Below are positions 649 through 24,005 of a stretch of 28,212 nucleotides of DNA, piece by piece. The position numbers were made by a program, and so were the translations under genes. The stretch is from a virus. Where the stretch lies: positions 1 through 28,212 of IMG/VR virus record IMGVR_UViG_3300049617_000230; one strand, given 5' to 3'. Numbering within the stretch: position 1 is the first letter of the stretch; every line of letters begins with the position of its first letter. The notes below the pieces were generated by a model. That model was not told the origin of the DNA. It saw only the letters and a program-made list of their open reading frames with translations, and made no database searches.

Positions 649-827
649 GATTCGCTCCTCGGTTTTGCTTCATAGAGGAAGCGAGCCATCTGAAACTCGA
701 CACGATCGATTTTGTTATTGAGCAGATCGTCGGTCTTCTTTGCGCACCAGAGATCCCAGCCCTTCTTTCCCTGTTTAATCACATTCACGTGCCAGACCGG
801 AGAGAAGCATGGATAGTCATTACTCAT
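645..827 (-). CDS. Small hypothetical protein, early operon
   Basis: A 60-residue protein with balanced charge and aromatic residues (CFSPVWHVNV, GWDLWCAKK, VEFQMARFLYEAK), which looks like a small folded domain, not random sequence. Both ends overlap neighbours by 4 nt: its ATG overlaps the stop of the helicase gene (824-827) and its stop overlaps the next ATG (645-648). A purine-rich stretch ahead of its start, GAGGAGGGTGGG on the minus strand, contains GGAGG and is a good ribosome-binding site. No family is recognised. Its position directly behind the helicase gene raises the possibility of a helicase-associated role, but nothing in the sequence shows this. Confidence 0.7.
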   Translation of the reverse strand: MSNDYPCFSPVWHVNVIKQGKKGWDLWCAKKTDDLLNNKIDRVEFQMARFLYEAKPRSES

Positions 828-2287
828 CCCACCCTCCTCGTCTCATGCCGGACGGGATCGTCGAAGCGCGTGTAGGGCGCGTGGAACAGGATGTTCAGCT
901 CGTCGGTAGGGCCGTTGCGCTGCTTGGCGATATTCAGGATGTAGGGCAGGACCGGGCCGTTGCGCTGCGTCTCCACATCGTCGTCGGCCATCTCCTGCCG
1001 GTGCAGGAGCATGACGACATCGGCATCCTGCTCGATCGCGCCGCTCTCGCGTAAATTGTGCAACGCCGGCGGCGCCTTCTGTTCCTCCGATCGGCGATTG
1101 AGCTGCGCCAGGATGATGACCGGGATGCCGAGTTCCTTGGCCAGCGCCTTGATCCCGCGCGAGATCTCCGCCACCTCGTTCTGCCGGTTATCCTTCGCCT
1201 GGGCGGATTCCGATCGCAGCAGCTGCAGGTAATCGATGATGAGCAGCTCGATGCCGTAGCGCTGCTTCATCCGGCGCGCGCGGCCGCGCAGCTGGTTGAT
1301 GGTCAAAAACGATGAATCGTCGAGGTAGAGCTGCCATTCCTGCAGGTCCGCGCCGACCAGGCGGAGCTTTTGCAGGGAGTGGGCATCCAGGTCGCCCTGG
1401 CGGATCCGCTGCAGGCTTTCGCTCGCGCACATGGCGAGCAGGCGCAGCATGAGCTGCTCGTTCGTCATTTCGAGCGAGAACATGCCGACGGCGTGGCCCG
1501 GCTTGCGCCAGACATCGGCCGCCTCGTCGTAGCGCTGGTCCAGCGCGTGGCGCGCGAAGGTGAGCGCGAGGGCGGTCTTCCCCTGCCCGGGCCGCGCGGC
1601 AAGGACGATCATCTCGCCCGGCTTCCATCCGGCGGTCAATTCATCGAGCTTGTGGAAGCCGGTGGCGATCCCCTGCAGGTGGCCCTTGCGCTTGCTGTAG
1701 GCGTCGATCATGGCCAGGGCGCGGCCAATCTCCTCCCGCGCGCTGACAATGCCCTGGGAGCCTTCCAGACTCGTGATGGCAAAGATGGAAGCTTCCGCCC
1801 GGTCCAGGACGGACGGGACCGAGTCGGGCATCTCGGCGATGTCCTGGGCGATCTCGCTGCAGGCGCGCAGGAGATGGCGCAGCTGGCTCTTGTCTTTGAC
1901 GATCCGGATGTAGGCCGCGACGTTGAGATGCGTGGCGAAGCCAACGAGCAGCTCGGCGAGAATGCCGGGCGAGCCGACCGCCTCGGCCAGCTTACGGTCG
2001 GTCAACCACTGGTGGAGCGTCATGAGGTCGACGGGAACGCGGTTACTCCACATCCCCGCCATCGCTTCAAAAATTTCCTGGTGAGCCGGCACGAAGAAGT
2101 CTTCTTTCGTTAGCGCCTCGATCGCCGCGTCAATCACGTCCAGTGGCTGGCCAAGCATGCAGCCGAGGACCGCCTTTTCCGCCTCGGCGCTGTAGAGCAC
2201 CTGCGGCGGCGGATCGCCGGCCGGTGCGGAGCGGCGTCGATCGGCCTTGGATCCGCGCAGAGGTTCGGCGTCGCGCGACATTATCAT
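824..2287 (-). CDS. dnaB: DnaB-type replicative DNA helicase
   Basis: At 487 residues this is close to the usual length of bacterial DnaB. After a basic N-terminal tail, an N-terminal DnaB domain spans about 30-135 (EAEKAVLGCMLG, FFVPAHQEIFEAM). A linker leads to the RecA-like ATPase: Walker A ARPGQGKT at 231-238, SLEM at 271-274, Walker B LLIIDYLQLL with Asp352, LAQLNRRSE at 393-401, EQDADVVMLLHR at 419-430, and the KQRNGPT finger at 455-461. All core residues appear intact, so it should be an active 5'-3' hexameric helicase that unwinds the replication fork. It starts in an ATGA overlap with the DUF7352-like gene; a second ATG two codons in is an alternative. A helicase of its own is unusual for a Mu-like phage, since Mu recruits host DnaB. 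No separate loader (DnaC/lambda P type) is recognised nearby. Confidence 0.95.
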   Translation of the reverse strand: MIMSRDAEPLRGSKADRRRSAPAGDPPPQVLYSAEAEKAVLGCMLGQPLDVIDAAIEALTKEDFFVPAHQEIFEAMAGMWSNRVPVDLMTLHQWLTDRKLAEAVGSPGILAELLVGFATHLNVAAYIRIVKDKSQLRHLLRACSEIAQDIAEMPDSVPSVLDRAEASIFAITSLEGSQGIVSAREEIGRALAMIDAYSKRKGHLQGIATGFHKLDELTAGWKPGEMIVLAARPGQGKTALALTFARHALDQRYDEAADVWRKPGHAVGMFSLEMTNEQLMLRLLAMCASESLQRIRQGDLDAHSLQKLRLVGADLQEWQLYLDDSSFLTINQLRGRARRMKQRYGIELLIIDYLQLLRSESAQAKDNRQNEVAEISRGIKALAKELGIPVIILAQLNRRSEEQKAPPALHNLRESGAIEQDADVVMLLHRQEMADDDVETQRNGPVLPYILNIAKQRNGPTDELNILFHAPYTRFDDPVRHETRRVG

Positions 2288-10613: not shown

Positions 10614-11519
10614 ATGCCCACGAAGCCGTTCTACAAATCGACGACGATCTGGAGCGCTGCGCTCCTTTTCCTCATCCAGCAAGCGCAGCAGCACGGCGTC
10701 ACCCTGGCCGACCTGGTCGCGCCGCTGAGCCTGTCGGTCGCGAACATCATCAACGCGCTGCCGCCCTTGATGAACGGCGTGGCGAGCTTCGCCGCCGTCA
10801 TCGGCATTATCGTCGGCCGGTTCCGGGCCGCGCAGCCCTTGGCCGTCCGCCCGACGCCGCCTTCCACTCCGCCGGCCAACCCCACCTCGGCGATTCGCGG
10901 GCTGTCGATTCTCCTGGTCCTGGGCGTCGCGGGCTCGGCCCTGACCGGCTGCGCCGGAACGCTCCCCAGCCAGTTCGAGAACTTCACGCCGGCTTTGACC
11001 ACGACGGAAACGAAGGTCGTGCTCGGCGCGGCTGCGCTCGACACGCCGGCCGCCCTGGCCGGGATTGAATCGGGCTCGGGCGCGTTGACCTCGGGCGCAA
11101 TGGCGCTCCTGATCAAGCAATCGAGTACGATGCAGACCGACGGGCTGCTCTTGTACGGTTGCGGGCAGGAGATGGAGGCACTGCCCTCGGGCAGCATCAA
11201 CGCGGGCGCGGTCGACGATATTTTTTCCGGAGCGAAGGCGAACGCCTCGACCACGGCGAGCGCGGCGACGCTTGCGCAGCTGGGCACATCGCTCGACGGG
11301 CTGATCGGGGCGGCCCGGACCTACGTGACCAGCCTGGCGACTTCGTCCAGCAACCCGTCGGTGACGGCCTACGTCGCGACCGTCTTTGGCGATGACGTGC
11401 ATGCGATAGGGAAAGGGATCTGCGATGCGACGGCGCAGTATGCGCCCGTCACCGCGCAGCTGCGCCTGCGCCTGAACTTCCTTCCGCCGCGCCAACACCT
11501 GCTCTGCCTCGATCTCTAA
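10614..11519 (+). CDS. Holin-like plus lipoprotein-like composite protein, first late gene
   Basis: A 301-residue protein with two unlike parts. Residues 5-70 (KPFYKSTTIWSAALLFLIQQ, then VANIINALPPLMNGVASFAA and AVIGIIVGRF) resemble small phage membrane proteins that act as holins or lysis accessories. A Pro-rich linker (PTPPSTPPANP) leads to a second hydrophobic stretch that ends in a perfect lipobox, LTGC at 110-113, after Arg95: by itself an excellent lipoprotein signal. The C-terminal part is Ala/Ser/Thr-rich and of unknown fold. The internal lipobox suggests that a holin-like gene and a lipoprotein gene have fused, or that the protein spans the membrane with an outer lipidated part. No internal start codon with a ribosome-binding site was found. 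The start directly follows the inverted repeat. Confidence 0.75.
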   Translation: MPTKPFYKSTTIWSAALLFLIQQAQQHGVTLADLVAPLSLSVANIINALPPLMNGVASFAAVIGIIVGRFRAAQPLAVRPTPPSTPPANPTSAIRGLSILLVLGVAGSALTGCAGTLPSQFENFTPALTTTETKVVLGAAALDTPAALAGIESGSGALTSGAMALLIKQSSTMQTDGLLLYGCGQEMEALPSGSINAGAVDDIFSGAKANASTTASAATLAQLGTSLDGLIGAARTYVTSLATSSSNPSVTAYVATVFGDDVHAIGKGICDATAQYAPVTAQLRLRLNFLPPRQHLLCLDL

Positions 11520-11527
11520 AGGCCGCC

Positions 11528-11740
11528 ATGATTACCGCCGCAACTATTTCGGCCGGCCTCGCCCTGCTCACCGCTGCCGGTGGCTGGGTCTGGAGCTGGT
11601 GGAGCAATCGCTATTCGGCGAACAACACGCCGGCCATGCAGGCGGCGGCCGCGAACCAGAAGCAGGTTTCGGCCGACGACAAGGTGAAGGCCGATGTGGA
11701 GTCGGCGAACACGCCGGCGACTCAGGAGGACCTGCAATGA
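11528..11740 (+). CDS. Small single-pass membrane protein, lysis cluster
   Basis: A 70-residue protein with one N-terminal membrane helix (ATISAGLALLTAAGGWVWSWW) and a polar, Ala/Gln/Lys-rich tail that is likely helical (MQAAAANQKQVSADDKVKAD). Small phage proteins of this shape in lysis regions are often holins or inner-membrane spanin subunits; this one is short for a spanin. Its end overlaps the start of the following lipoprotein gene, with an AGGAGGA ribosome-binding site (11724-11730) inside its coding region. Confidence 0.75.
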   Translation: MITAATISAGLALLTAAGGWVWSWWSNRYSANNTPAMQAAAANQKQVSADDKVKADVESANTPATQEDLQ

Positions 11741-12216
11741 CGCCCACCCGCTTTGGCGCCCTGCTTCTGTGTCTGGCGCTCGCGGGCTGCGTGGGCACCC
11801 GGACGCCGAACCTTGCGCGCTCTTCCGTCAACGATCCCGACGCGACCACGCCCCAGCAGTATCCGCAGAATAACAGCGGCTTTTTGGGCTACCACGACGA
11901 TCGCGCCTGGCTGACGCCCGACGGGAAGAGCGAGGTCGGCGGCGCGGCGATCCAGGGCGTCGTCTTCGGCGTGATCACGCCGGCCAAGCGCGCCGAGTAC
12001 AACGTCCTGATCTACCAGCACGCCGTCCGGTTCTTCGCGCAGTACGCCGTGGCGCTGCACGCGGACGACGGGCTGGCGCCCTGGGCGGATGCATACGGCA
12101 ACGCGCTCTGGCGGATGGATACCGCGCATGTGACCTACCTGGGCTGGCTCGAAAAATATCGCCGCAACCCGAATCAATTCCCGGTCGATTCACTGCTGCA
12201 GAAGGCGGGGCTATGA
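11737..12216 (+). CDS. Predicted phage lipoprotein, lysis cluster
   Basis: Start at the ATG at 11737, with AGGAGGA six bases ahead and a 4-nt overlap with the previous stop; a longer frame from 11599 is rejected. The 159-residue product has a signal peptide (MTPTRFGALLLCLALAGC) with lipobox LAGC and lipidation at Cys18. The mature part has YHDDRAWLTPDGKSEVGG near the start, then helical YNVLIYQHAVRFFAQYAVAL, and ends in a Trp/Tyr-rich region (WADAYGNALW, YLGWLEKYRR). It is much larger than Rz1-type outer-membrane spanins. It probably sits in the outer membrane or periplasm; a role in lysis or exclusion is inferred from the neighbours. Confidence 0.8.
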   Translation: MTPTRFGALLLCLALAGCVGTRTPNLARSSVNDPDATTPQQYPQNNSGFLGYHDDRAWLTPDGKSEVGGAAIQGVVFGVITPAKRAEYNVLIYQHAVRFFAQYAVALHADDGLAPWADAYGNALWRMDTAHVTYLGWLEKYRRNPNQFPVDSLLQKAGL

Positions 12217-12446
12217 AGTGGGGGCTTTTCAGATGTGCGTTCCTTGCGTCCTTCGTGGCTGCCACGATCTGGGCTTTCGTCTATCCGCGCGAGACGCCCG
12301 CCCAGGCCCGGATCGATCGGCTGGAAGAGACAATCTCCAGCGTTAATTCCGACATCACTTTTCGCCAGGCCGGCATCGACGAGGACCGCGAGCAGTTGCA
12401 CCAGGCGGAGATCGAGCTCGACGAGATCAAGAAGGAGAACCCTTGA
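12213..12446 (+). CDS. Spanin-like membrane protein (TM plus coiled coil)
   Basis: A 77-residue protein: one N-terminal membrane helix (GLFRCAFLASFVAATIWAFV), then a Glu/Asp/Lys-rich coiled coil to the end (RIDRLEETISSVNSDI, then EQLHQAEIELDEIKKE). This is the layout of a short inner-membrane spanin (Rz type), whose periplasmic coil joins an outer-membrane lipoprotein; the preceding gene codes for a lipoprotein and overlaps it by ATGA. It could equally be a small membrane anchor of another kind. The stop overlaps the TTG start of the glycosyltransferase gene. Confidence 0.75.
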   Translation: MKWGLFRCAFLASFVAATIWAFVYPRETPAQARIDRLEETISSVNSDITFRQAGIDEDREQLHQAEIELDEIKKENP

Positions 12447-13450
12447 GCCTGCCCGCCGCCCACGCGCCGTTTTCGGTCCCGCCGATCCAGCCGCACCCGG
12501 ACAAGCTCTACGTGGTGACGGTGATCTTCAGTCCGCGCCGCTACCAGGCCCGCTACCGTCTTTACCGCACGTTCGAGAAGATGGTGGCCGACGGCGGGGC
12601 GCAGCTGCTCACGGTCGAGATCGCCCTGGGCGATCGGCCCTTCGAGGTCACCTCGGCGGCCAATCCCTGGAACATCCAGCTGCGCACCAGGTCGGATCTT
12701 TGGCACAAGGAACGGGCGCTCAACCTGGGCATCCAGCGCCTTTGCCAGATGGTCCCGGAGGCGAAGTTCATCGCCTGGATCGATGCCGACGTCACCTTCA
12801 CGCGGTCGGACTGGGCGCAGGAAACGATGCAGCTGCTGGAGCATTACCCGGTGGTGCAGATGTTCGGCGAGGCGACAAATCTGGATCCTAAGGAGCATGC
12901 GCAGTGGACCTGCAAATCGGCCTTCCGAGAGTTCGTGGAGACGCGGGCCATCTCGCCCGATTTCTACGCCAACGGCACCGGCGGCCATCCCGGCCTGGCC
13001 TGGGCGGCGACGCGCGCGGCGCTCGACACGGTCGGCGGCCTGATGGATTTCTGCGTGTCGGGCAGCGCCGACACCTACATGGCGAACTCGCTGCGCGGCT
13101 ACTGGTCGAAGGGTGATTCCAACCACAAAACCATCACCGAGTTTTCGCCGCAGTTTGTCAACCTGGTCCGGATCTGGGCGAAGCGCGCCGAGGCGTTCGG
13201 GACGAACGTCGGCTACGTACCGGGCACGGTGTTCCACCACTGGCACGGCAACTCGTTCCAGCGCGGGCATGTGACGCGCTGGTACGCGATGCAGCGCCAC
13301 CAATTCGATCCGCACCGCGACATCGTGATGGAGACGAACGGGCTCTACCGCTTTGCCGGCAACAAGCCGCAGATGGAAATGGAGCTGCACGCCTCCATGA
13401 GCGGGCGCAACGAAGATTCCATCGACGTCTTTGGAGGAAGGAAGACGTGA
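12443..13450 (+). CDS. GT-A-type glycosyltransferase
   Basis: A 335-residue protein starting at TTG in a 4-nt overlap, with AAGGAG a few bases ahead. The opening LYVVTVIFSPRRYQARYRLY has the first strand of a GT-A fold. HKERALNLGIQRL at 88-100 is the usual helix before the acidic motif, and FIAWIDADVTFTRSDW carries Asp-Ala-Asp at 114-116 for metal and nucleotide-sugar binding. Then come NGTGGHPGLAWAATRAAL and a late histidine cluster (FHHWHGNSFQRGH). This fits a family-2-like transferase of the type I associate with phages, where F-x-P-x-x-Y-x-x-R-x-x-LY-x-x-F is conserved. There is no membrane segment, so it is probably cytosolic. Substrate and acceptor are unknown: phage DNA, virion protein or host surface sugar are all possible. 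Confidence 0.85.
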   Translation: MSLPAAHAPFSVPPIQPHPDKLYVVTVIFSPRRYQARYRLYRTFEKMVADGGAQLLTVEIALGDRPFEVTSAANPWNIQLRTRSDLWHKERALNLGIQRLCQMVPEAKFIAWIDADVTFTRSDWAQETMQLLEHYPVVQMFGEATNLDPKEHAQWTCKSAFREFVETRAISPDFYANGTGGHPGLAWAATRAALDTVGGLMDFCVSGSADTYMANSLRGYWSKGDSNHKTITEFSPQFVNLVRIWAKRAEAFGTNVGYVPGTVFHHWHGNSFQRGHVTRWYAMQRHQFDPHRDIVMETNGLYRFAGNKPQMEMELHASMSGRNEDSIDVFGGRKT

Positions 13451-15171: not shown

Positions 15172-16574
15172 CGGTTTCGTCTCCGGTTTCTCCGCGCGAC
15201 ATGTTGCTGGACTACCAGCGCAGGTACGCCGACGACGAGTCGCGCTTCAAGGCTTGGTTGGCGGCGCGCCAGATCGGCAAGGACTTCACCGAGGGCGAGG
15301 AGATTGCGCGCGACTCGATGGTGACGCCAAAGAATACCTGGCTGATCGCCTCGCCCTCCGAGCGCCAGAGTCTCGAGTCGCTCGACAAGGTCAAGCAGTG
15401 GACCGAGGCATATCAGCTGGCGATCGAGGATTACCGGGAAGAGCGCGATACGCCCGGCGCGTTGATCAAATCGGCGACGATCACCTACGGCAACGACAGC
15501 CGTGTCATTGCCGTTCCGGGTCGCCCCGAGACGGTGCGCGGTTTTTCCGCGAACGTGTTCATGACTGAGTTTGCGTTTTTCGAGGATGCGGCCGCGACCT
15601 GGAAGGCGGTACTGCCCTCCATTACCAATCCGTTGCGGGGCGGGCTAAAAAAGGCGCGCATCGCGAGCTCCGCCAACGGCAAGAGCGGCCGGGGGGCGAA
15701 GTTTTACGAGATCCTCGACAAAAACTTTTTTAACGTGCCGCCCGGCACCAAGCCGGTCTGGAGCTGCCACGCCACGAATATTTATGACGCCGTCGCCGGC
15801 GGTCTCGAAGTCGACATCGAGGAGCTGAAAGCTGCGCTCGACGACCCCCTGGCATTCGCCCAGGAGGAAATGAACGAGTTCCTCGACGGCTCGAACATTC
15901 TGCTCCCGTACGATCTGATCCAGCTCGCGGAGAGCTTCGACGCCAACGAGGTCATTGATCACGAGTTTTTCCTGAAGGGTTTTCACAATCCGATTTATTG
16001 CGGCATCGATTTCGGCCGCACGAGCGACCCGACCGTCTGTTGGACGCTAGAGCAGATTGGAGACATCCTTTGGACGCGGGAAGTGCTGGTCCTGGAGAAC
16101 ACCTCCACGCCACTGCAGAATGAGATCCTCAAGTCGCGGATCCGCGCCTCGTCCTTGACCTGCGTCGACTACACCGGGCCCGGTATCGGCTTCGGCGATT
16201 ATGCCGTCCGCGATTTCGGCGAGCACAAGCCGGAGGGCCACACCTTCGGCAAGGTCGAGCTCTGCACCTTCACCAAAAAGTTCAAGCGGCAGATCTTCCC
16301 CAACCTGCGCCGCAAGTTCGAGGCGCCGACCAAGCTTCGCATCCCCAGCTCGGTTGCCGTGCGGGAGGACCTGCACGCGATGGAGCAGATCATCAGCAAC
16401 GGCGAATATGATTATTGGGCGCCCCGCACCCGGGACGGCCACAGCGACCGGTGCACGGCGCTGGCTCTGGCGATCCGCGCGGCCGGCGACCTGGCACCCT
16501 TCGCGTATCAGTCGCTCAAACTGCAGCGCGGCGCGCTCAAGAAAAAGCGCTTTGGTCAACGGAGGCTGGCGTGA
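15168..16574 (+). CDS. Large terminase subunit (Mu gp28-like)
   Basis: Start at the ATG at 15168 overlapping the small-subunit stop; 468 residues. The ATPase part begins near 28 with FKAWLAARQIGKDF, a Walker A variant (RQIGKD at 34-39, Asp where Ser or Thr is common). Walker B is FMTEFAF with Glu134, where Thr133 stands at the place of the more usual Asp. The RNase H-like nuclease follows with three acids: Asp281 (GIDFGRTSDPTV), Asp334 (CVDYTGPGIG) and Asp427 (DGHSDRCTALALA). It pumps DNA into the prohead and cuts it when full. A longer frame from 14589 is rejected because it would read through the small subunit. The stop overlaps the portal GTG. Confidence 0.93.
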   Translation: MTVSSPVSPRDMLLDYQRRYADDESRFKAWLAARQIGKDFTEGEEIARDSMVTPKNTWLIASPSERQSLESLDKVKQWTEAYQLAIEDYREERDTPGALIKSATITYGNDSRVIAVPGRPETVRGFSANVFMTEFAFFEDAAATWKAVLPSITNPLRGGLKKARIASSANGKSGRGAKFYEILDKNFFNVPPGTKPVWSCHATNIYDAVAGGLEVDIEELKAALDDPLAFAQEEMNEFLDGSNILLPYDLIQLAESFDANEVIDHEFFLKGFHNPIYCGIDFGRTSDPTVCWTLEQIGDILWTREVLVLENTSTPLQNEILKSRIRASSLTCVDYTGPGIGFGDYAVRDFGEHKPEGHTFGKVELCTFTKKFKRQIFPNLRRKFEAPTKLRIPSSVAVREDLHAMEQIISNGEYDYWAPRTRDGHSDRCTALALAIRAAGDLAPFAYQSLKLQRGALKKKRFGQRRLA

Positions 16575-18175
16575 AGAAGGCCAAGCCCAAGGTCAAGGCT
16601 GCCGCGCCGGTTCCGGCGCCGGAGAAGACAGTTTCCGATGTGCCGGCCGCGCGGGTGCAGATGTACCTGCGTTCGCGCTTCAACCCCATCCGCAACCTTT
16701 CGCCCGAGCTGCTCAGCCATTATCTGGACCGGCTCAAGATCGGCTGGCTGCGCGAGATCACGCTGATCTGGGACGCGATCCAGGAAAGGGACGACAAGGT
16801 CAGCCTGGTCTCCGCTTTACGGCGCAAGGCGGTCGCTCGGTTCGATTATCAGATCGAGGTGATCGACGACCTGGCGGACTCGGACAAGGCGACGGCGGCC
16901 GAGCATAAGGCGGCCCTGGAATACTTTTACAGCCACCTTTCCACGACCAGCGCGATCGACGAGAACGAACAGGGCGGCGTGAAGCTGCTGATCAAGCAGA
17001 TGATGGATGCGGTCGGGAAAAAGTACTCCGTCCATGAAATCGTCTGGCAGCCCCAAGCCGACGGATCGCTGACCGCGCAGATGCGCTGGGTGCCGATCTG
17101 GTTCTTCGAAAATACCACCGGAAAGCTGCGCTATATCCCGACCGAGGGCGAAGCCTACGGCCTGGACCTGGAAGAGGGCGGGTGGATGGTGACGGTCGGC
17201 GACGGCCTGATGATCGCGACCTGCATCGCCTACATGTTCAAGACGCTGCCCTTGCGCGACTGGGTGACCTACTGCGAACGCAACGGCATGCCGGCTTTCC
17301 TGGGCAAGACCAACGCCTCGCAAAACTCGCCGCAGTGGACCGCGATGGTCGCGGCGGTGGAATCGATCGCGGCCGATTACGCGGCGGTGATGAACACTTC
17401 GGAATCGATCGAGGCGCTGGACCTGAAAGGTTCCCAGGCAAATCTGCCCTACGAACCGCTGGTCCAGCTGATCAACGCGGCGATCGCCTCGCTCTGGCGC
17501 GGGGGTGACCTTTCCACGCAATCCAGCGGCAAGCAGTCCCAGGGGCGCGGATCCAACCGGCAGGAGGACGAGGCGGAGATCATCCTGGACGACGACGTCG
17601 AGATGATCAGCGAGACGCTGCGGATGAACGTCGACCGTTACGTCATCCAGAACCAATTTGGCGACGACCAGCCGCTGGCGCGCTTCACCATCATTCGGCC
17701 GCCGAAGGAGGCGACCGCGCAGGATCTCGCCGTCGACCAGTTCCTGATCGGGTCGAGCGCTCCCCTGGGCGTGGACGACGCCTACAAGCGTTACGGCCGG
17801 GTCGCACCGAGGCCGGGCGAGGCCCTCCTGGTCGCGCCGCAGCAACCGGAGCAGATCCCGCAAGGCCTGGCGAACATCAAAGCTGTCGGGATTGTTCATG
17901 ATGCTGGCGAGGCCGAGATGGCCAGGTTGATTGTCAATTCCAAGCCGGAGATCGCCGCCGGCCTCGCCCTGACGCTGCAGCCGATGGCGGAGCACTACCG
18001 CCGCGCGCTCGATGTCCCGGACGACCAGCTGGCCGGCTCGATCGACCGGTTCAGGGCATCGCTGCCGGCGTTGCTTAAGGAAATGAACGTCAAGCCGGAG
18101 ATCGTCCCGCAGCTCTCCAGCACTATCGCCACCGCCCTTTTGGGCGAAGTCACCCAGAAAGCACCCGCCAAATGA
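16571..18175 (+). CDS. Portal protein (Mu gp29 / DUF935-like)
   Basis: Start at the GTG at 16571, overlapping the terminase stop, with GGAGG five bases ahead; 534 residues. A Lys/Ala/Pro-rich tail precedes the portal core: DRLKIGWLREITLIWDAIQE, DDKVSLVSALRRKAVAR, KYSVHEIVWQPQADG, RWVPIWFFENTTG, and LPLRDWVTYCERNGMPAFLG, the last a strong mark of the DUF935 family. MNTSESIEALDLKGSQ and LINAAIASLWRGGDLS follow. It forms the ring at one vertex through which DNA passes. Leu433-Ala-Asn near the C-terminus is one of the Leu-Ala-Asn sites discussed separately. Its end overlaps the protease gene by 4 nt. Confidence 0.93.
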   Translation: MKKAKPKVKAAAPVPAPEKTVSDVPAARVQMYLRSRFNPIRNLSPELLSHYLDRLKIGWLREITLIWDAIQERDDKVSLVSALRRKAVARFDYQIEVIDDLADSDKATAAEHKAALEYFYSHLSTTSAIDENEQGGVKLLIKQMMDAVGKKYSVHEIVWQPQADGSLTAQMRWVPIWFFENTTGKLRYIPTEGEAYGLDLEEGGWMVTVGDGLMIATCIAYMFKTLPLRDWVTYCERNGMPAFLGKTNASQNSPQWTAMVAAVESIAADYAAVMNTSESIEALDLKGSQANLPYEPLVQLINAAIASLWRGGDLSTQSSGKQSQGRGSNRQEDEAEIILDDDVEMISETLRMNVDRYVIQNQFGDDQPLARFTIIRPPKEATAQDLAVDQFLIGSSAPLGVDDAYKRYGRVAPRPGEALLVAPQQPEQIPQGLANIKAVGIVHDAGEAEMARLIVNSKPEIAAGLALTLQPMAEHYRRALDVPDDQLAGSIDRFRASLPALLKEMNVKPEIVPQLSSTIATALLGEVTQKAPAK

Positions 18176-19272
18176 AACCCGTTCCCATTCCTTTCCGCCG
18201 CCAGTTTATCGCCCTTCTCGCCAACCACGCAGACACCAATATCCGTGGCGCCTTCCTGCTCGCGAACGATTTTGCTCCGAGCGAAGACGGCTGGATCCAG
18301 TTGGTGCCCTACGGCGATTATCCGCATTCCGGGCCGCTCGGTGGCGATGGCAAGCCGCTGAAGAAAAACGGTAAGGTGCTTTATCCCGTCGGCGTGGTGC
18401 AGCGCCTCGACAACGAGGCCGCGAAGGTCCTGGTCGACCAGTTCAACAGCGTGGCGGCCAAGCTGGCCCGCGCGTTCGTCGGGCTGCCCTGGTACATCGG
18501 CCATCCCGATCTGGATCCGGTCAAGTATCCCGATTCGAAGAGCTACGGCTGGATCAAGGACCTGGCCAATCGGGACGACGGCCTCTACGCCAAGGTGGAT
18601 TGGAACCCGGGCGGCAAGGAGCTGATCGAAGGCAAGTCGTTCAAGCTCTTCTCACCCTTCTTCAGCCGGGGCGAGGACACCGGCGAAAAGCTGCCCAACG
18701 GCCGGAACGTCATCCGCCCCACGCTACTCAAGAGCGTCGGCTTCACGAACAATCCGAATATCGACGTCATCCCCCTGGCCAACGCGGCCGACGGCGATGA
18801 CTTTTCGTCAACCGGCGAGGAAGCGGCCGCCGAGTTTCTGGTGGCCAACGCCATCGAGCGCGGCGTCTTGAATGAATCGGACCGCGCCGAGTGGATTTCC
18901 CATTTCGAGGAAGATTTTGTCAGCGCGCAATTCGTCCTGGCCAACGTCGGCAACAGCGAGGGCGCGAAGAAAGGCTGGATCACCCGGCGCGCGGCCATGG
19001 CGTCCAAGCCTGGTCCTTCCAAGGTGGCCGCCAAGGTCGCCGCGAAAACTGCTCGCCAAAAGGCAGCGCCGAAGAAGGCAGCTGCGGGCAAAGCGAAAGT
19101 GTCGACGGCAGCGCGCATAGCTGCTCGGGCAAAAACTCCCCCTCTGCCGCCGAAGACGGCCGCTTCACCGCCTCCGCTGCCCACCCGGGCCGCTCCGCCC
19201 CCGCTGCCCTCAACTCCCCGCGTGCCGCTCGCCGCGCGGGTGGCCTCGTGGATGGGGCGCAAAAACTCTTAG
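18172..19272 (+). CDS. Prohead protease (Mu I-like), with scaffold-type C-terminus
   Basis: A 366-residue protein. Residues about 20-200 fit the Mu I-like protease: GWIQLVPYGDYPHSGPL, GVVQRLDNEAAKVL, FVGLPWYIGHPDLDP with a likely catalytic His, SYGWIKDLANRDDGLYAKVD and KSFKLFSPFFSRGED. Residues 222-258 repeat a module also found in the next gene (LVANAIERGVLNESDRAEW). The C-terminus is low-complexity, first Lys/Ala-rich (KKAAAGKAKV), then Pro-rich (PPLPPKTAASPPPLPTR), as in disordered scaffold tails. Five Leu-Ala-Asn tripeptides occur. In Mu, I is cleaved and its C-terminal part is made separately as scaffold Z. No F-type head gene lies between portal and protease here. Confidence 0.88.
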   Translation: MKPVPIPFRRQFIALLANHADTNIRGAFLLANDFAPSEDGWIQLVPYGDYPHSGPLGGDGKPLKKNGKVLYPVGVVQRLDNEAAKVLVDQFNSVAAKLARAFVGLPWYIGHPDLDPVKYPDSKSYGWIKDLANRDDGLYAKVDWNPGGKELIEGKSFKLFSPFFSRGEDTGEKLPNGRNVIRPTLLKSVGFTNNPNIDVIPLANAADGDDFSSTGEEAAAEFLVANAIERGVLNESDRAEWISHFEEDFVSAQFVLANVGNSEGAKKGWITRRAAMASKPGPSKVAAKVAAKTARQKAAPKKAAAGKAKVSTAARIAARAKTPPLPPKTAASPPPLPTRAAPPPLPSTPRVPLAARVASWMGRKNS

Positions 19273-19303
19273 TCAGACAACCCCCAACGAACGGAAACCA
19301 AAA

Positions 19304-19990
19304 ATGAAAAGAATGAAGTTAATGGTCCTCGCTGCGGCCTCCCTACTCGTGGGGCCTCTGCGCGGAGAAACATGTGCCCTGGCCAACGAGAAGGCGGCGG
19401 GCAAGCCGGCCGATTACTGGAAGCGTAAAACCGCCATGGCGATCGGCAAGCCCGAGCTCGCCGACGCCAGCGACGATGACCTGGAAAAGGCGCACGACGC
19501 TCACATGGCGGCGATGTCGATGGCCAACGATGAGGAGGATGCGACCACGACGCCGGCGCCCGCCCTGGCCAATGAGCGCCGTGCGCAACAGAAGGACGAA
19601 ACGGGCCAGGAGCCGCTTCGCCTCGCCAACGAGAAGATCGCGGCGGCGCAAAAGAAGAGCGCCGATCTCTTGATCGCCAACGCCATGACCGAAGGCCGGA
19701 TCCTGGCGGCGACGAAAGCCGATTGGGAGGGACGCTTCGCCAACGACTTCGAGGAAGCGGAAGAAGCGCTGAAGGGCGAGAAGAAGAAGCTCAATACCTC
19801 GGCGCGGTCCGTCGGCCTGGCCAACGACAACAGCGGCGCCCATGTGACCGAAACCGAACGCCGGGGCAAGGTGCAAAGCCTGGTCAACGAAGAGATGACC
19901 AAGAACGGAGGGGATTACGACCTCGCCTTCACCACGGTGCAGCGCCTGCACAAATCGCTCTTCGAACCGAAGCCGGCCGCGAAGAAATAA
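19304..19990 (+). CDS. Scaffold-like protein with repeated LAN(E/D) motifs
   Basis: A 228-residue charged, mostly helical protein rich in Ala, Glu and Lys. Its chief feature is a repeated short motif: ALANE (25-29), SMAND, ALANE (87-91), RLANE, LIANA, RFAND, GLAND and SLVNE, at intervals of about 15-45 residues. Residues 121-165 (LLIANAMTEGRILAATKADW, then NDFEEAEEALKGEK) match the C-terminal module of the protease gene just upstream. That and the position before the capsid gene make a scaffold (Mu Z-type) most likely. The N-terminus (MKRMKLMVLAAASLLVGPLR) looks like a signal peptide, which is odd for a scaffold. It is separated from the protease gene by 31 bp and has an A-rich leader without a clear ribosome-binding site. 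Confidence 0.75.
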   Translation: MKRMKLMVLAAASLLVGPLRGETCALANEKAAGKPADYWKRKTAMAIGKPELADASDDDLEKAHDAHMAAMSMANDEEDATTTPAPALANERRAQQKDETGQEPLRLANEKIAAAQKKSADLLIANAMTEGRILAATKADWEGRFANDFEEAEEALKGEKKKLNTSARSVGLANDNSGAHVTETERRGKVQSLVNEEMTKNGGDYDLAFTTVQRLHKSLFEPKPAAKK

Positions 19991-20035
19991 CCGGCCAGCC
20001 CATCCATCCAGAACCAACCCAGAAAAACTATTCCC

Positions 20036-20425
20036 ATGAAAACTATCACTACCATCAAAAAGAACGCCACGGCCCCGGAAGACCCGCACGCCACGCACGC
20101 GGTGGACAACATCAAAAGCGGCGCCGGTCCCGTCGTCGAGCTGCACGTGCGCGTCCGCTCGCACTACCGGAAGCTGGTCGAATCCAAGGTGCTCGCCGGC
20201 ATCCCGCGCGACCTGGCCGAGGACACCGCGCGGCGCCAGATCGAGCACGATCACGGCGTCGACGTGGTCCGCGCCGTGTTCGAGGCCGCCCAGGTCGACC
20301 GCGAGGACGCGATCGCCACGGCCGGCGTCGCCTCGAATGCCCGGCAGGTACCGATCTCCGATCGGCCGGCGTCTATCCCTGTCGATGTCCGTCTCGACGA
20401 AACCAAACCCGCCTCGGACCTGTAA
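20036..20425 (+). CDS. Hypothetical head-region protein
   Basis: A 129-residue protein between the scaffold-like and cement-like genes, with 45 bp and 30 bp of leader on either side. The N-terminus is polar; the middle (VVELHVRVRSHYRKLVESKV, then LAEDTARRQIEHDHGVDVVR, then AVFEAAQVDRED) is alpha-helical and charged, and the C-terminus is extended with prolines. No family, cysteine or membrane segment is seen, and it has none of the Leu-Ala-Asn motifs of its neighbours. Its location suggests a minor head component. Confidence 0.7.
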   Translation: MKTITTIKKNATAPEDPHATHAVDNIKSGAGPVVELHVRVRSHYRKLVESKVLAGIPRDLAEDTARRQIEHDHGVDVVRAVFEAAQVDREDAIATAGVASNARQVPISDRPASIPVDVRLDETKPASDL

Positions 20426-20455
20426 GCCCGAAGCACCAACCCCAAGGAAAACCCC

Positions 20456-21352
20456 ATGTTACCTCATCTGCTTAGTCTGATGGTTCTACTGGTCGGGCTG
20501 CTGTTCTTCTGGCAGCTGCTCCGAAAAACCCGCTGTATCCGCACTCGCTTCGTTGCCCCGCCGCTGGACCTAGTTCAGCGCGTGCAACTGCGCAAGACGC
20601 GCACCGGCTGGAAAGCCTCGCTCTTCGGCTGGCTCGTCCCGCGCGGCGAGCCGATGTTCCTGGCGAACATCGCGGAAGGCCGGCACAAGGAAGGCAAGAT
20701 CAGCCGGCTTCCGGCCGTCGAGATCCCGCACGCGACGAATGGCACCCGGCTTTATCTCCTGGCCAAGAACACCGGGACGGTGGGCCAGGCGACGATCGCC
20801 GGCGTCGGCGACATCCCGATCGGGATCTTCGGCGACAGCACCGACCGGGGATCGTTCGGCGGAAACACGTTTACCGACCTGACCATTCCGCTGCTCGTTC
20901 AGCTCTTCGGCGCGACGATCGAGACGCAGCTCGTTTCGATCAATAGCAACGTGGCCCTGGGCGACCTGCTGGTTTGCGACGCGAATGGCTATGCCAAGAC
21001 GCTTCCCGCAGACACGGCGGGCTGCTTCTATGTCTTCGGCCGCGCCCTGCAAGCGGGTGTCGCGGGCGACAACATCGAGTTCGACCCGATCCTGCCCAAG
21101 CCCGGCTCGGGCTTCGTGCCGATCTTCGCCGGTGTCATGGCCGCGACGGTGGCCGGCGTCGATGACGTCCTGCCGATCGCCGGGCTCCTCGTAGGCGACT
21201 TCATTGTCGTCACGCTGAACACCCAGCACGGCGCAGAAACGATCACAACGGCACAGGCCGCTGCGGGCCAGATCAACGTCGTGCTTAGCGCGGCGGCCTC
21301 GATCGGCAACACCAAGTACAACGTCGCGGTCTTCCGCGCCGTGAACAGCTAA
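20456..21352 (+). CDS. Capsid cement/decoration-like protein (DUF2190-like) with a membrane-type N-terminus
   Basis: A 298-residue protein. Residues 1-22 are strongly hydrophobic (LLSLMVLLVGLLFFWQLL), followed by an Arg-rich stretch, which is unexpected for a capsid protein. From MFLANIAEG (67-75) on, the sequence is beta-rich: YLLAKNTGTVGQATIAGVGD, SNVALGDLLVCDANGYAK and TAGCFYVFGRALQAGVAGD, similar to DUF2190-type capsid cement proteins (a value passed from 'not controlled' to 'G-x-A-L-x-A'). The end (DVLPIAGLLVGDFIVVTL) forms another small beta domain. Cleavage after Leu-Ala-Asn at 69-71 would remove the hydrophobic part; alternatively translation starts at Met67, although no ribosome-binding site is seen there. 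GGAAAA precedes the first ATG. Confidence 0.65.
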   Translation: MLPHLLSLMVLLVGLLFFWQLLRKTRCIRTRFVAPPLDLVQRVQLRKTRTGWKASLFGWLVPRGEPMFLANIAEGRHKEGKISRLPAVEIPHATNGTRLYLLAKNTGTVGQATIAGVGDIPIGIFGDSTDRGSFGGNTFTDLTIPLLVQLFGATIETQLVSINSNVALGDLLVCDANGYAKTLPADTAGCFYVFGRALQAGVAGDNIEFDPILPKPGSGFVPIFAGVMAATVAGVDDVLPIAGLLVGDFIVVTLNTQHGAETITTAQAAAGQINVVLSAAASIGNTKYNVAVFRAVNS

Positions 21353-21381
21353 CCCCCGAAAGGAGCAAAAACGAAAACCAA

Positions 21382-22464
21382 ATGAAAACGACAGCTACCA
21401 AGCTACCGGATCGGGGACGCACGATGCGTTTGCCGAATAACCACGGTCTCGACCGTAACGCCCTCGTCCTGCCGCCCATCCCGAGCTATTCCGAAGCCGG
21501 CGTGGGCCAGATCTGCCTGGCCAACGAAGCCCTGATGACGGATGAGACGTTCAGCGTTCCGCTGACCTACTATTCCGTCGGCTACAGGGACCCGGAAAAC
21601 AACCAGGCCCTGGTGAACTTCCTTTCGCCCGATGTTCAGGTCGGCCGGCTCTTCGAGTTCAAGCAGCACAATAACGCGGAAGAGTTCTACACCGAGGCGG
21701 ACGACATCCGCGCGATCGGCGCCGAGTTCAAGCGCATCGATTACTCGGGCTCGACCCAGTTCAACAATACGTTGAACAAGGGCCTCGGCTTCCGCTACGA
21801 CATGGACTATGTGTCCCGGTTGGGCGTGAGCCAGGGGACCTACCTGGAGGACCCGACGGTGTTTCAGCAGCGGATCGTGGCGAAGATCCTGCGCCGGCTC
21901 TGGAGAAACGAGGCGGTGCGCACGGTGACCATGGCGGTCGCCGCAGCGGTGAACACCAATGTGACCTGGTCGGCGGCGACGGGAGAAGGCCCCTACGTCT
22001 ATCCCGATCCCGAGGGCGATGTGATGGCGGCGGCGGATGCGGCCCAGCTCGTGCAGGGCATCTATCCCAACCGGCTCCTCTACGCGAAGGACGCGTGGAC
22101 GAAGCGGTTCAAGGGTCTCGGCCTGGATGGCAATGCGGCCCGGTTCGGCAGCCGGTCCCTCACTCCCCAGCAGGTCGCGGACATCACCACGTTCGACTCG
22201 GCGATGATCAGCCGGTCGGTGTACCAGGCGAGCTCGGCCTCGAAGGCGCGGCTGCTCTCCAACCTGGTTCTGATGTTCCTGGCCATGGATGGCGTGGATC
22301 AGGACGACCCCACCAACTTCAAGCGTTTCACGACGCCGACGGAGTCGGGCCCCTACCGCGTGTACGTCAATAATTACGGCAAGTTCGTCGACATCTTTGT
22401 CGAGCTCTACAGCCGGATTGTGGCGACCAGCACGATCGGTGTGGCCTCCCTCACGGTGAGCTAA
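21382..22464 (+). CDS. Major capsid protein
   Basis: A 360-residue protein in the position of the major head protein, behind scaffold and cement genes and followed by a terminator-like hairpin. The N-terminal 48 residues are polar and flexible and end in QICLANEAL; the fold starts with TFSVPLTYYSVGYRDPEN, FEFKQHNNAEEFYTEADDI, AIGAEFKRIDYSGSTQF and KGLGFRYDMDYV, and continues with AAADAAQLVQGIYPNRLLYA and GPYRVYVNNYGKFVDIFVEL. This is typical of HK97-fold major capsid proteins from Mu-like phages, although it is diverged from Mu T. A Leu-Ala-Asn-Glu at 46-49, between the loose N-terminus and the fold, is exactly where a maturation cut would be expected. It has an A-rich leader. Confidence 0.85.
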   Translation: MKTTATKLPDRGRTMRLPNNHGLDRNALVLPPIPSYSEAGVGQICLANEALMTDETFSVPLTYYSVGYRDPENNQALVNFLSPDVQVGRLFEFKQHNNAEEFYTEADDIRAIGAEFKRIDYSGSTQFNNTLNKGLGFRYDMDYVSRLGVSQGTYLEDPTVFQQRIVAKILRRLWRNEAVRTVTMAVAAAVNTNVTWSAATGEGPYVYPDPEGDVMAAADAAQLVQGIYPNRLLYAKDAWTKRFKGLGLDGNAARFGSRSLTPQQVADITTFDSAMISRSVYQASSASKARLLSNLVLMFLAMDGVDQDDPTNFKRFTTPTESGPYRVYVNNYGKFVDIFVELYSRIVATSTIGVASLTVS

Positions 22465-22486
22465 AGCCAACCAGGCGATTCAACCC

Positions 22487-22518
22487 GAAAGCCCCGCCCC
22501 CGCACGTGCGGGGCTTTC
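22487..22518 (+). terminator. Terminator-like hairpin after the major capsid gene
   Basis: An 11-bp perfect stem (GAAAGCCCCGC ... GCGGGGCTTTC) encloses a 10-base loop, 22 bases after the capsid stop; only a short TTT tract follows. Inside it lies a second perfect palindrome, CCCCGCACGTGCGGGG (22498-22513), which competes with the main stem. It probably lowers transcription beyond the capsid gene, or protects the capsid mRNA 3' end. Confidence 0.7.
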
Positions 22519-22545
22519 CCTTGAATCTCCACTTCTTCGACCACG

Positions 22546-23019
22546 ATGCCCCAACCTTCCGAACCCTGGATCACGCTGCAGGCGACCGATCTCAACGATT
22601 ACCTCGTTGGGGCGCAGGCGACCGCTATGCGCACGGCCGCGCTCGCGCCGGGCCAGGCGGATACGTTCACGGCCGTGATGACCGACGTCGTCAACCGGGT
22701 GCGCAGCGAGATCCGCAGCAATATCCGCAACCTGGTCAGCCAGACGCCGCTGAGCATCCCGCCCGATCTCAAGTCGCCGACCATGGCGCTCCTGGTCGAG
22801 GCGATTTCCCTGCGCATCCCACAGCTGAAGCTGAGCGACGACCAGAAGAAGGCGGCCGATAATGCCCGCTCGTACCTGGTCCGCGTCGCCCGGGGTGAGG
22901 TCGTGATCACCATGCCGCCGGACCCGATGGTGCCGGACGACCAGGAACGCGGCGCGCCGATCACCGTCATTCACGCCGACCGGCGCCGCTACACGCACCG
23001 GCAAATGAGGGGGCTATGA
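22546..23019 (+). CDS. Mu gp36-like (DUF1320) head-tail connector protein
   Basis: A 157-residue, mostly helical protein: WITLQATDLNDYLVGAQATA, FTAVMTDVVNRVRSEIRSNI, PTMALLVEAISLRIPQLKL, and KAADNARSYLVRVARGEVVI. The opening aspartate-leucine, the row of helices and the closing L-x-R-x-A-x-GE-V are those of gp36/DUF1320-type proteins, which sit at the head-tail junction. In Mu this gene follows the capsid gene, as here. Its stop overlaps the next ATG. Confidence 0.8.
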   Translation: MPQPSEPWITLQATDLNDYLVGAQATAMRTAALAPGQADTFTAVMTDVVNRVRSEIRSNIRNLVSQTPLSIPPDLKSPTMALLVEAISLRIPQLKLSDDQKKAADNARSYLVRVARGEVVITMPPDPMVPDDQERGAPITVIHADRRRYTHRQMRGL

Positions 23020-24005
23020 CGACCGAAGAACCGATCCCGGATGACGTCGCGACGAAGTTCCTTCGCGACAAAAACGTCGTAGGGACTGGCTTAAGCTCGG
23101 CGCAGCTGAGTCGGCTTCCGGCCGCCTGGCGCGCCCGGTCGTTTTTTTCCGCCCGGGTGGTGAACGCGCAGATCGTTCAGGATTTTTGGAACGGTGTTTA
23201 TTCCATCGTTGCCGGAGAGACGAACCTGGCGACCGAGCGGGTGAAGCTCAAAGACATGCTCGACACGATCGAGTACCGCCCCGGCGCCGGCGCGGCCGGA
23301 GGCCTGCGCGACCTGGGCAGCAACCGGCGCCTGAACCTGATGCTCAATACGAACGTGTCGATGGCGCGCGGGTTCGGCCAGTTCCTGCAGGCGAACACGG
23401 AAGGCGCGCTGATGGCCTTCCCGGCACAGGAGCTCGTCCGGTTCGAGGCGCGCGTGGTGCCGCGTGAATGGTTCGAGATCTGGGACGAGGCTGCCGACGA
23501 GCTGGGCGACGAGACGAGCGCGACCGACGCGGGCGAGACGGGCCGGATGGTCGCCCTGGTGAACGACCCTATCTGGCTGGAAATCTCCGATTTCGATCAG
23601 CCCTATCCGCCCTTCAAGTTCAATTCCGGGATGGGCGTGCGCCCGATCGATTACGACGAGGCGGTCGCCCTCGGCGTGATGGATGCCGACGATCCCGCCC
23701 CGGAGCCGGACCAGGACCGCGATTTCAACGACGGCCTGGCGGCGAGCGTGGAGGGTTTGTCATCGGACCTGGTCCAGGTGCTGGAGCAGGATCTCTCCGA
23801 CGTGGCCCAGCTCGTCGAGGATAAGCTCGTTTTTAAGGCGCCCAAGCCCGCGCCCACACCGGATAAGCCTCTGGCCAACGCGGACGCGCTACGGGCGCGT
23901 GCGGAGCGAAATCTGGCCCTCCTGGCGAACATGGGCATCCCGCCGCTGCGCCGACTCGCCAATCGGCGGCTGGCCGAGGTCGACCAACTCCTGGAGACGA
24001 CATGA
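23016..24005 (+). CDS. Phage minor head / morphogenesis protein (Mu F-like part)
   Basis: A 329-residue protein. The middle (RRLNLMLNTNVSMARGFGQF, then ALMAFPAQELVRFEARVVPR, EWFEIWDEAADELGD) matches the TN-x-x-MA-x-G, PA-x-EL-x-R and PR-x-W pattern of head-morphogenesis proteins I associate with the C-terminal half of Mu F. FKFNSGMGVRPIDYDEAVAL follows. The C-terminus has three Leu-Ala-Asn tripeptides in 31 residues (286, 303 and 314). In Mu, F lies between portal and protease; here the F-like protein is downstream of gp36, a clear rearrangement. It is joined to the genes on both sides by ATGA overlaps. Confidence 0.7.
   Translation: MTTEEPIPDDVATKFLRDKNVVGTGLSSAQLSRLPAAWRARSFFSARVVNAQIVQDFWNGVYSIVAGETNLATERVKLKDMLDTIEYRPGAGAAGGLRDLGSNRRLNLMLNTNVSMARGFGQFLQANTEGALMAFPAQELVRFEARVVPREWFEIWDEAADELGDETSATDAGETGRMVALVNDPIWLEISDFDQPYPPFKFNSGMGVRPIDYDEAVALGVMDADDPAPEPDQDRDFNDGLAASVEGLSSDLVQVLEQDLSDVAQLVEDKLVFKAPKPAPTPDKPLANADALRARAERNLALLANMGIPPLRRLANRRLAEVDQLLETT

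Follow-up and report, generated by a model that had tools for sequence, protein, structure and literature searches.

In the head maturation systems described for three other phages, cleavage follows Glu, at (L/I)xE in T4, (S/A)xE in phiKZ and AxE in SPN3US. Among the head proteins that carry such sites are the scaffold and the capsid, and the protease has been described to process its own C-terminus (PMC9026906, PMC10052503, PMC5694885). Here we analyze a Mu-type phage from a virus collection (IMG/VR record IMGVR_UViG_3300049617_000230), taken as one stretch of 28,212 bases that we call the window. It carries MuA- and MuB-like genes and a head module in the order portal (PF06074), protease (PF10123), scaffold, cement and capsid, and the tripeptide Leu-Ala-Asn (LAN) recurs in its head proteins. 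We conclude that LAN is very probably recognized, as P3-P2-P1, by the head maturation protease that the phage itself encodes, an enzyme of Mu type related to T4 gp21 and herpesvirus assemblin. The sites depart from the cleavage-after-Glu code of T4, phiKZ and SPN3US, as the predicted P1 residue is Asn, a specificity other than the one described for these three phages.

The initial annotation had counted by eye about 15 LAN in six head proteins between nucleotides 17867 and 23963, one of them at portal residue 433, and had seen only one elsewhere, in the MuB-like ATPase. A script count returned exactly these figures. The portal has one LAN (residues 433–435, if translation starts at the GTG at 16571), the protease five (first residues 16, 30, 131, 202 and 256, plus a VAN at 224), the scaffold-like protein four (26, 88, 107 and 172, plus MAN73, IAN124 and FAN145), the cement protein one (69–71), the capsid protein one (46–48) and the F-like protein three at its end (286, 303 and 314), and the single LAN in the 31 remaining proteins scanned is that of MuB. 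The comparison with shuffled controls that had been proposed also came out in favor of the motif: the head proteins hold 15 LAN against 1.12 ± 1.05 expected from composition shuffles (maximum 6 in 3000) and six LAN[ED] against 0.14, whereas the other proteins hold one LAN against 2.31 ± 1.47. In the protease and scaffold taken together, no tripeptide is more over-represented than LAN (9 versus 0.4). Protein by protein, the excess is significant for the protease, the scaffold and the F-like protein but not for the single LANs of the portal, cement and capsid, and relatives are therefore needed for these three.

A protease search yielded eight related contigs and a capsid alignment 80 loci, which gave 77 distinct capsid proteins after removal of duplicates, mostly about 40% and in most cases 33–56% identical to the window capsid. 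Single-protein queries with the capsid and the terminase found no relatives in viral_contigs, the capsid query and the A8 search were both without matches in genome_contigs, and the phages collection held no match to the window capsid. Across the relatives the motif is kept at homologous places in capsid, cement and protease (Table 1), the second check that the initial annotation had suggested. P3 is mostly Leu, Phe or Ala and P2 mostly Ala, and P1' in the capsid is Glu, Asp or Ala. The three proteins are mutually non-homologous, yet Asn at P1 is conserved in each. Chance, or a compositional bias of Ala/Leu-rich head proteins, could be argued from the protease LAN131 and the F-like LANs, which are not conserved, but it is refuted by the shuffles and by the conservation in the 77 relatives, and we give it practically no credence.

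Table 1. Positions of the head genes, candidate cleavage sites (proposed cut marked ↓, residue numbers those of Asn) and comparison loci
Feature	Position	Strand	Basis
Site GLAN435↓I, portal C-terminal tail (PF06074; gene 16571-18175)	17867..17875	+	Own-code tripeptides (see text) in portal tails of relatives
Head maturation protease, Mu-like_Pro PF10123	18172..19272	+	Pfam E 8.2e-12, 45.7 bits vs curated cut-off 25.2
Site LLAN18↓H, second protease N-terminal candidate	18217..18225	+	xAN nearby in several relatives; weaker than N32
Site LLAN32↓D, protease N-terminal processing candidate	18259..18267	+	Asn in 41/42 proteases
LAN133 (LAN131 by first residue), strand 126-134 of catalytic domain	18562..18570	+	Predicted local distance difference test (pLDDT) ~95; not conserved
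Site PLAN204↓A, candidate end of catalytic domain and start of scaffold-like tail	18775..18783	+	Asn in 73/74 proteases, His in L084
VAN226, protease tail	18841..18849	+	Similar scaffold protein stretch reads IAN126
LAN258, protease tail	18937..18945	+	Sequence
Scaffold-like protein	19304..19990	+	PHROG hits, weak (E 0.003-0.013), to C-terminal halves of head-protease families
Cement (decoration) protein precursor	20456..21352	+	PF09956 Phage_cement_2 matched by 7/9 aligned members of the family, best E 6.3e-9
Membrane-helix-like segment, cement residues 6-22, basic residues after	20471..20521	+	Kyte-Doolittle 17-residue maximum 2.39
Site FLAN71↓IAEG, cement	20660..20668	+	Asn in 68/75 relatives
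Major capsid protein, HK97 fold, predicted 48-residue propeptide	21382..22464	+	Foldseek 3bjq E 2.6e-14
Site CLAN48↓E, capsid	21517..21525	+	Asn in 74/77 relatives, Asp in 2, His in 1
Three LAN, F-like protein end	23871..23963	+	Window enrichment p 0.001
Mu gene I protease, LSA x6	L110 3057-4142		Candidate cleavage code
B3 protease, FAE x5	L109 5858-7129		Candidate cleavage code

Among the aligned capsids, the leader that precedes the site varies in both length and sequence; the window capsid, which also matches HK97 Head II (Foldseek E 4.8e-8), is modeled with pLDDT under 50 at residues 10–25 and 52–65. The window cement alone has no PF09956 match, and it aligns with matching family members over the body. 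Among the seven cements without Asn at the site, four have only 0–3 residues before it (L023, L073, L084 and L091), and another, that of L082, is misaligned by one residue and reads RLN↓A. The cement genes of L073, L084 and L091 are without a propeptide and start 0–3 residues from the proposed cut. That the bonds are cut, that the cut falls after Asn and that this enzyme makes it is what we infer; for the exact bond we rely on these cement genes without a leader and on the examples of T4 and SPN3US.

The protease is related in fold to the T4 prohead protease and to herpesvirus proteases. Its AlphaFold2 model has a confident catalytic domain at about residues 36–202, flanked by disordered stretches at 19–34, which holds N32, and at 205–211, which adjoins N204. 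Compared with solved structures, the domain finds T4 gp21 at the top (VIA Z 8.4) and herpesvirus proteases at Z 7.7 and below; the 25 best-ranked structures (Z 8.4 to 4.8) are all T4 gp21 or herpes proteases, with a Foldseek E of only 0.04. A search of solved structures by sequence with the protease profile gave nothing beyond apparent chance matches to helical proteins. H111 and S161, 50 residues apart, are invariant in 42 relatives and are likely the catalytic pair. LAN131 lies inside the fold and is probably a chance occurrence without function.

A scaffold-like tail follows or overlaps the protease, and the window has a separate scaffold gene besides; protease and scaffold form one chain in most aligned relatives, while the window and L004 have the separate gene. 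Its seven motif sites would divide the scaffold-like protein into pieces of 15–54 residues. Two further observations concern this region. After the scaffold-like region, the protease C-terminus of the window (19000-19269) reads as a Lys/Ala/Pro-rich tail (AAKVAAKTARQKAAPKKAAAGKAK... PPPLP), similar in L004. In L009, what from its sequence looks like a small HNH-endonuclease-like open frame (11424-12017) lies between the protease and scaffold genes.

If one enzyme serves all sites, proteins that are unrelated but come from the same phage should agree in the variable residues P3 and P2. Using representatives under 60% identity and expectations from permutation, we found that capsid and cement shared their P3 residue in 18 of 34 phages (8.4 ± 2.2 expected), capsid and protease in 17 of 40 (11.1), and cement and protease in 15 of 34 (8.9). 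As shared ancestry could also produce matches, all capsid–cement column pairs were scored, and the P3–P3 pair ranks first of 12,890 variable pairs. No same-residue matching was seen between capsid and cement at P5–P9 or at the primed positions.

Exchanges of the whole code point the same way. In the protease of L084, all six positions that are motif Asn in relatives are His, and none of the six other Asn of the folded domain turned into His (four Asn, one Glu and one Ser). His is also found in its capsid (ELAH↓A) and portal tail (QMIH↓A and AMVH↓A), so that Asn appears, from these sequences, to have been exchanged for His together in three proteins. In L082, protease (LNA seven times), capsid, cement and portal all have sites of the form x(L/I)N↓A, and L066, L071 and L078 have FCN in both capsid and cement. 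These patterns are the trace expected from a changed protease specificity with all substrates following. The simple code of the initial annotation has to be amended in that LAN is one form of a less strict code, [L/F/A/M]-[A/G/S/C/V]-Asn, which drifts between relatives.

We then defined an own code for each phage, consisting of tripeptides taken only from its capsid, cement and protease, and counted it in other proteins. In 69 portals, 56 own-code tripeptides fall in the tails (10,115 residues) and 5 in the cores (23,516 residues); a count against expectation gave the portals 72 matches versus 20.4. In nine of the portals that lack a site, the tail is just 35–44 residues long. The excess is absent from the controls, namely TerL (9 versus 7.4 expected), gp36 (5 versus 4.4) and three tail-region families (3 versus 5.1, 3 versus 5.4 and 7 versus 7.1). 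Covariation between proteins and the exchange to His would be expected from any common recognizer, and the tripeptide could thus remain uncut and serve scaffold, capsid, cement and portal for docking to a shared partner inside the prohead. We regard this as improbable, as the sites occur in disordered linkers at the edges of domains, flank the protease domain and lie where an unconserved leader meets a conserved body; the leader-less cement genes begin at the predicted cut point, and nine of the site-less portals lack the tail. In the F-like family, own-code tripeptides number 17 against 7.8 expected but are present in only 11 of 49 homologues and in none of the nearest relative, L012, and the three LAN of the F-like protein therefore probably lie outside the processing system. 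The claim that LAN marks maturation-protease sites is thus borne out in five of the six proteins and probably does not hold for the F-like protein and for the protease LAN131. About 11 of the 15 LAN, with the VAN, MAN, IAN and FAN variants, are supported as candidate sites.

Cement leaders differ from capsid leaders in one further respect. A segment of membrane-helix strength is present in 80% of 66 cement leaders (median Kyte-Doolittle maximum 2.56; window 20456-20668, with homologues in L004-L091) and in 3% of capsid leaders; the scaffold leader of the window, with a maximum of 1.49, stays just under the threshold, which is reached by 1 of the 42 proteases searched for such leaders. The mean charge is +2.5 after the cement segment and +0.4 before it, the basic side lying after it in 46 cases and before it in 2, so the cement body is predicted to stay in the cytoplasm. 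From the end of the helix to the proposed cut there are about 18 residues. Proheads of T4 are built on the inner membrane and come free once proteolysis has taken place, and those of SPN3US were seen to stay attached where it had failed (PMC9026906). Given this precedent and the helix-like leader, it is plausible that the cement precursor is held at the membrane until it is cut. The hydrophobic leaders might instead suggest an export signal, with host signal peptidase cutting xALA↓N in cement and scaffold, and the scaffold CALA↓NE indeed fits A-x-A. We consider this exceedingly unlikely: the P2 Ala varies (G, S, C, V and L) while Asn is constant, capsid leaders are not hydrophobic, and the orientation in 46 of 48 decided cases predicts a cytoplasmic body.

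We thus propose that, in prohead maturation, the protease would free itself at N32 and N204, the scaffold would be cut into small peptides at its repeated sites, the N-terminal propeptides of capsid and cement would be removed after N48 and N71, and the portal C-terminal tail would be trimmed after N435. Several results weigh against this proposal. Conservation in the capsid starts a few residues upstream of the site (G42 and I44), so part of it may be structural. Among non-overlapping nearest phage pairs, co-change of P3 reaches moderate significance (Fisher p 0.012), and three of the eight co-changing pairs have an identical change in both proteins. L084 is a single contig, and a search for further His-coded relatives found only its own contig and Asn-coded ones. 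The concert is also imperfect: the capsids of L063, L073 and L119 read MAD or LAD with protease sites still Asn, either because Asp is tolerated at P1 or because the capsid is no longer cut. Finally, own-code counts in capsid, cement and protease include the defining sites, and only those of the portal and the controls are independent.

The proposed system resembles that of T4 gp21 in fold (Z 8.4), hydrophobic P3, fixed P1, many scaffold sites, protease autoprocessing and a capsid propeptide (65 residues in T4). It differs in P1, which is Asn instead of Glu, in the preference for Ala at P2 and in the portal, as T4 gp20 is not processed (PMC5694885), whereas the window portal tail appears to be a substrate. 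Like SPN3US gp245 (A-x-E) and phiKZ gp175 (S/A-x-E), it would have a capsid propeptide that is long and holds several sites, a protease that cleaves itself C-terminally and a processed portal; the Asn at P1, and a gene order and protease of Mu type, set it apart. Herpesvirus assemblin is alike in fold (Z up to 7.7) and in having the scaffold downstream of the protease, and it cuts Ala↓Ser, unlike the Asn proposed for the window. The gene I/Z/T module of phage Mu has the same PF10123 protease, scaffold after or overlapping the protease and PF06074 portal, but LSA is repeated there instead of LAN. The start of Mu gpT was confirmed by sequencing (RefSeq note), and the Mu capsid thus seems to be without a propeptide; capsid leaders may be particular to the family of the window. 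Elsewhere in the window, as judged from the sequence, a DnaB-like replicative helicase is seemingly encoded beside the MuA- and MuB-like genes (824-2287, minus strand), and a gene resembling glycosyltransferases lies upstream of the terminase (12443-13450).

Significant tripeptide repeats are also present in other Mu-type proteases, LSA six times in Mu, FAE five times in B3 and ALN five times in B23, and were not found in the proteases of D3112, Pelagibaca P1, Rhodovulum P1, Akkermansia, Riverbug, Mushu and a Helicobacter prophage. No published Mu-type cleavage motif was found in searches of an open-access library. The support for a general claim on Mu-type phages comes from Mu, B3 and B23, with weak additions from MuM16-2 and martha. 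A broader reading, which could equally turn out right or wrong, is that Mu-type phages have a re-writable proteolytic code, rewritten in concert with protease specificity, and that the family of the window has in addition a membrane-tethered cement precursor released by the same protease. Each lineage would then have its own spelling: LAN, FCN, AAN, LVN, xLN↓A or xxH in the phages of this study, and LSA, FAE and ALN in Mu, B3 and B23.

In summary, sequence comparison alone can read the cleavage code of uncultivated phages, with Asn, and in one contig His, replacing the Glu known from T4 and giant phages. The code gives exact and cheaply checked predictions of neo-N-termini and suggests that the portal tail is a substrate; the enzymes of these phages form a natural series in which protease–substrate coevolution can be studied. 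A membrane-tethered cement, if true, would link head assembly to the host membrane. As a prohead protease cuts several proteins at one motif, a shift in its specificity is expected to be close to lethal if the substrates do not all follow, and one lineage here would have been caught after such a rewrite of the code.

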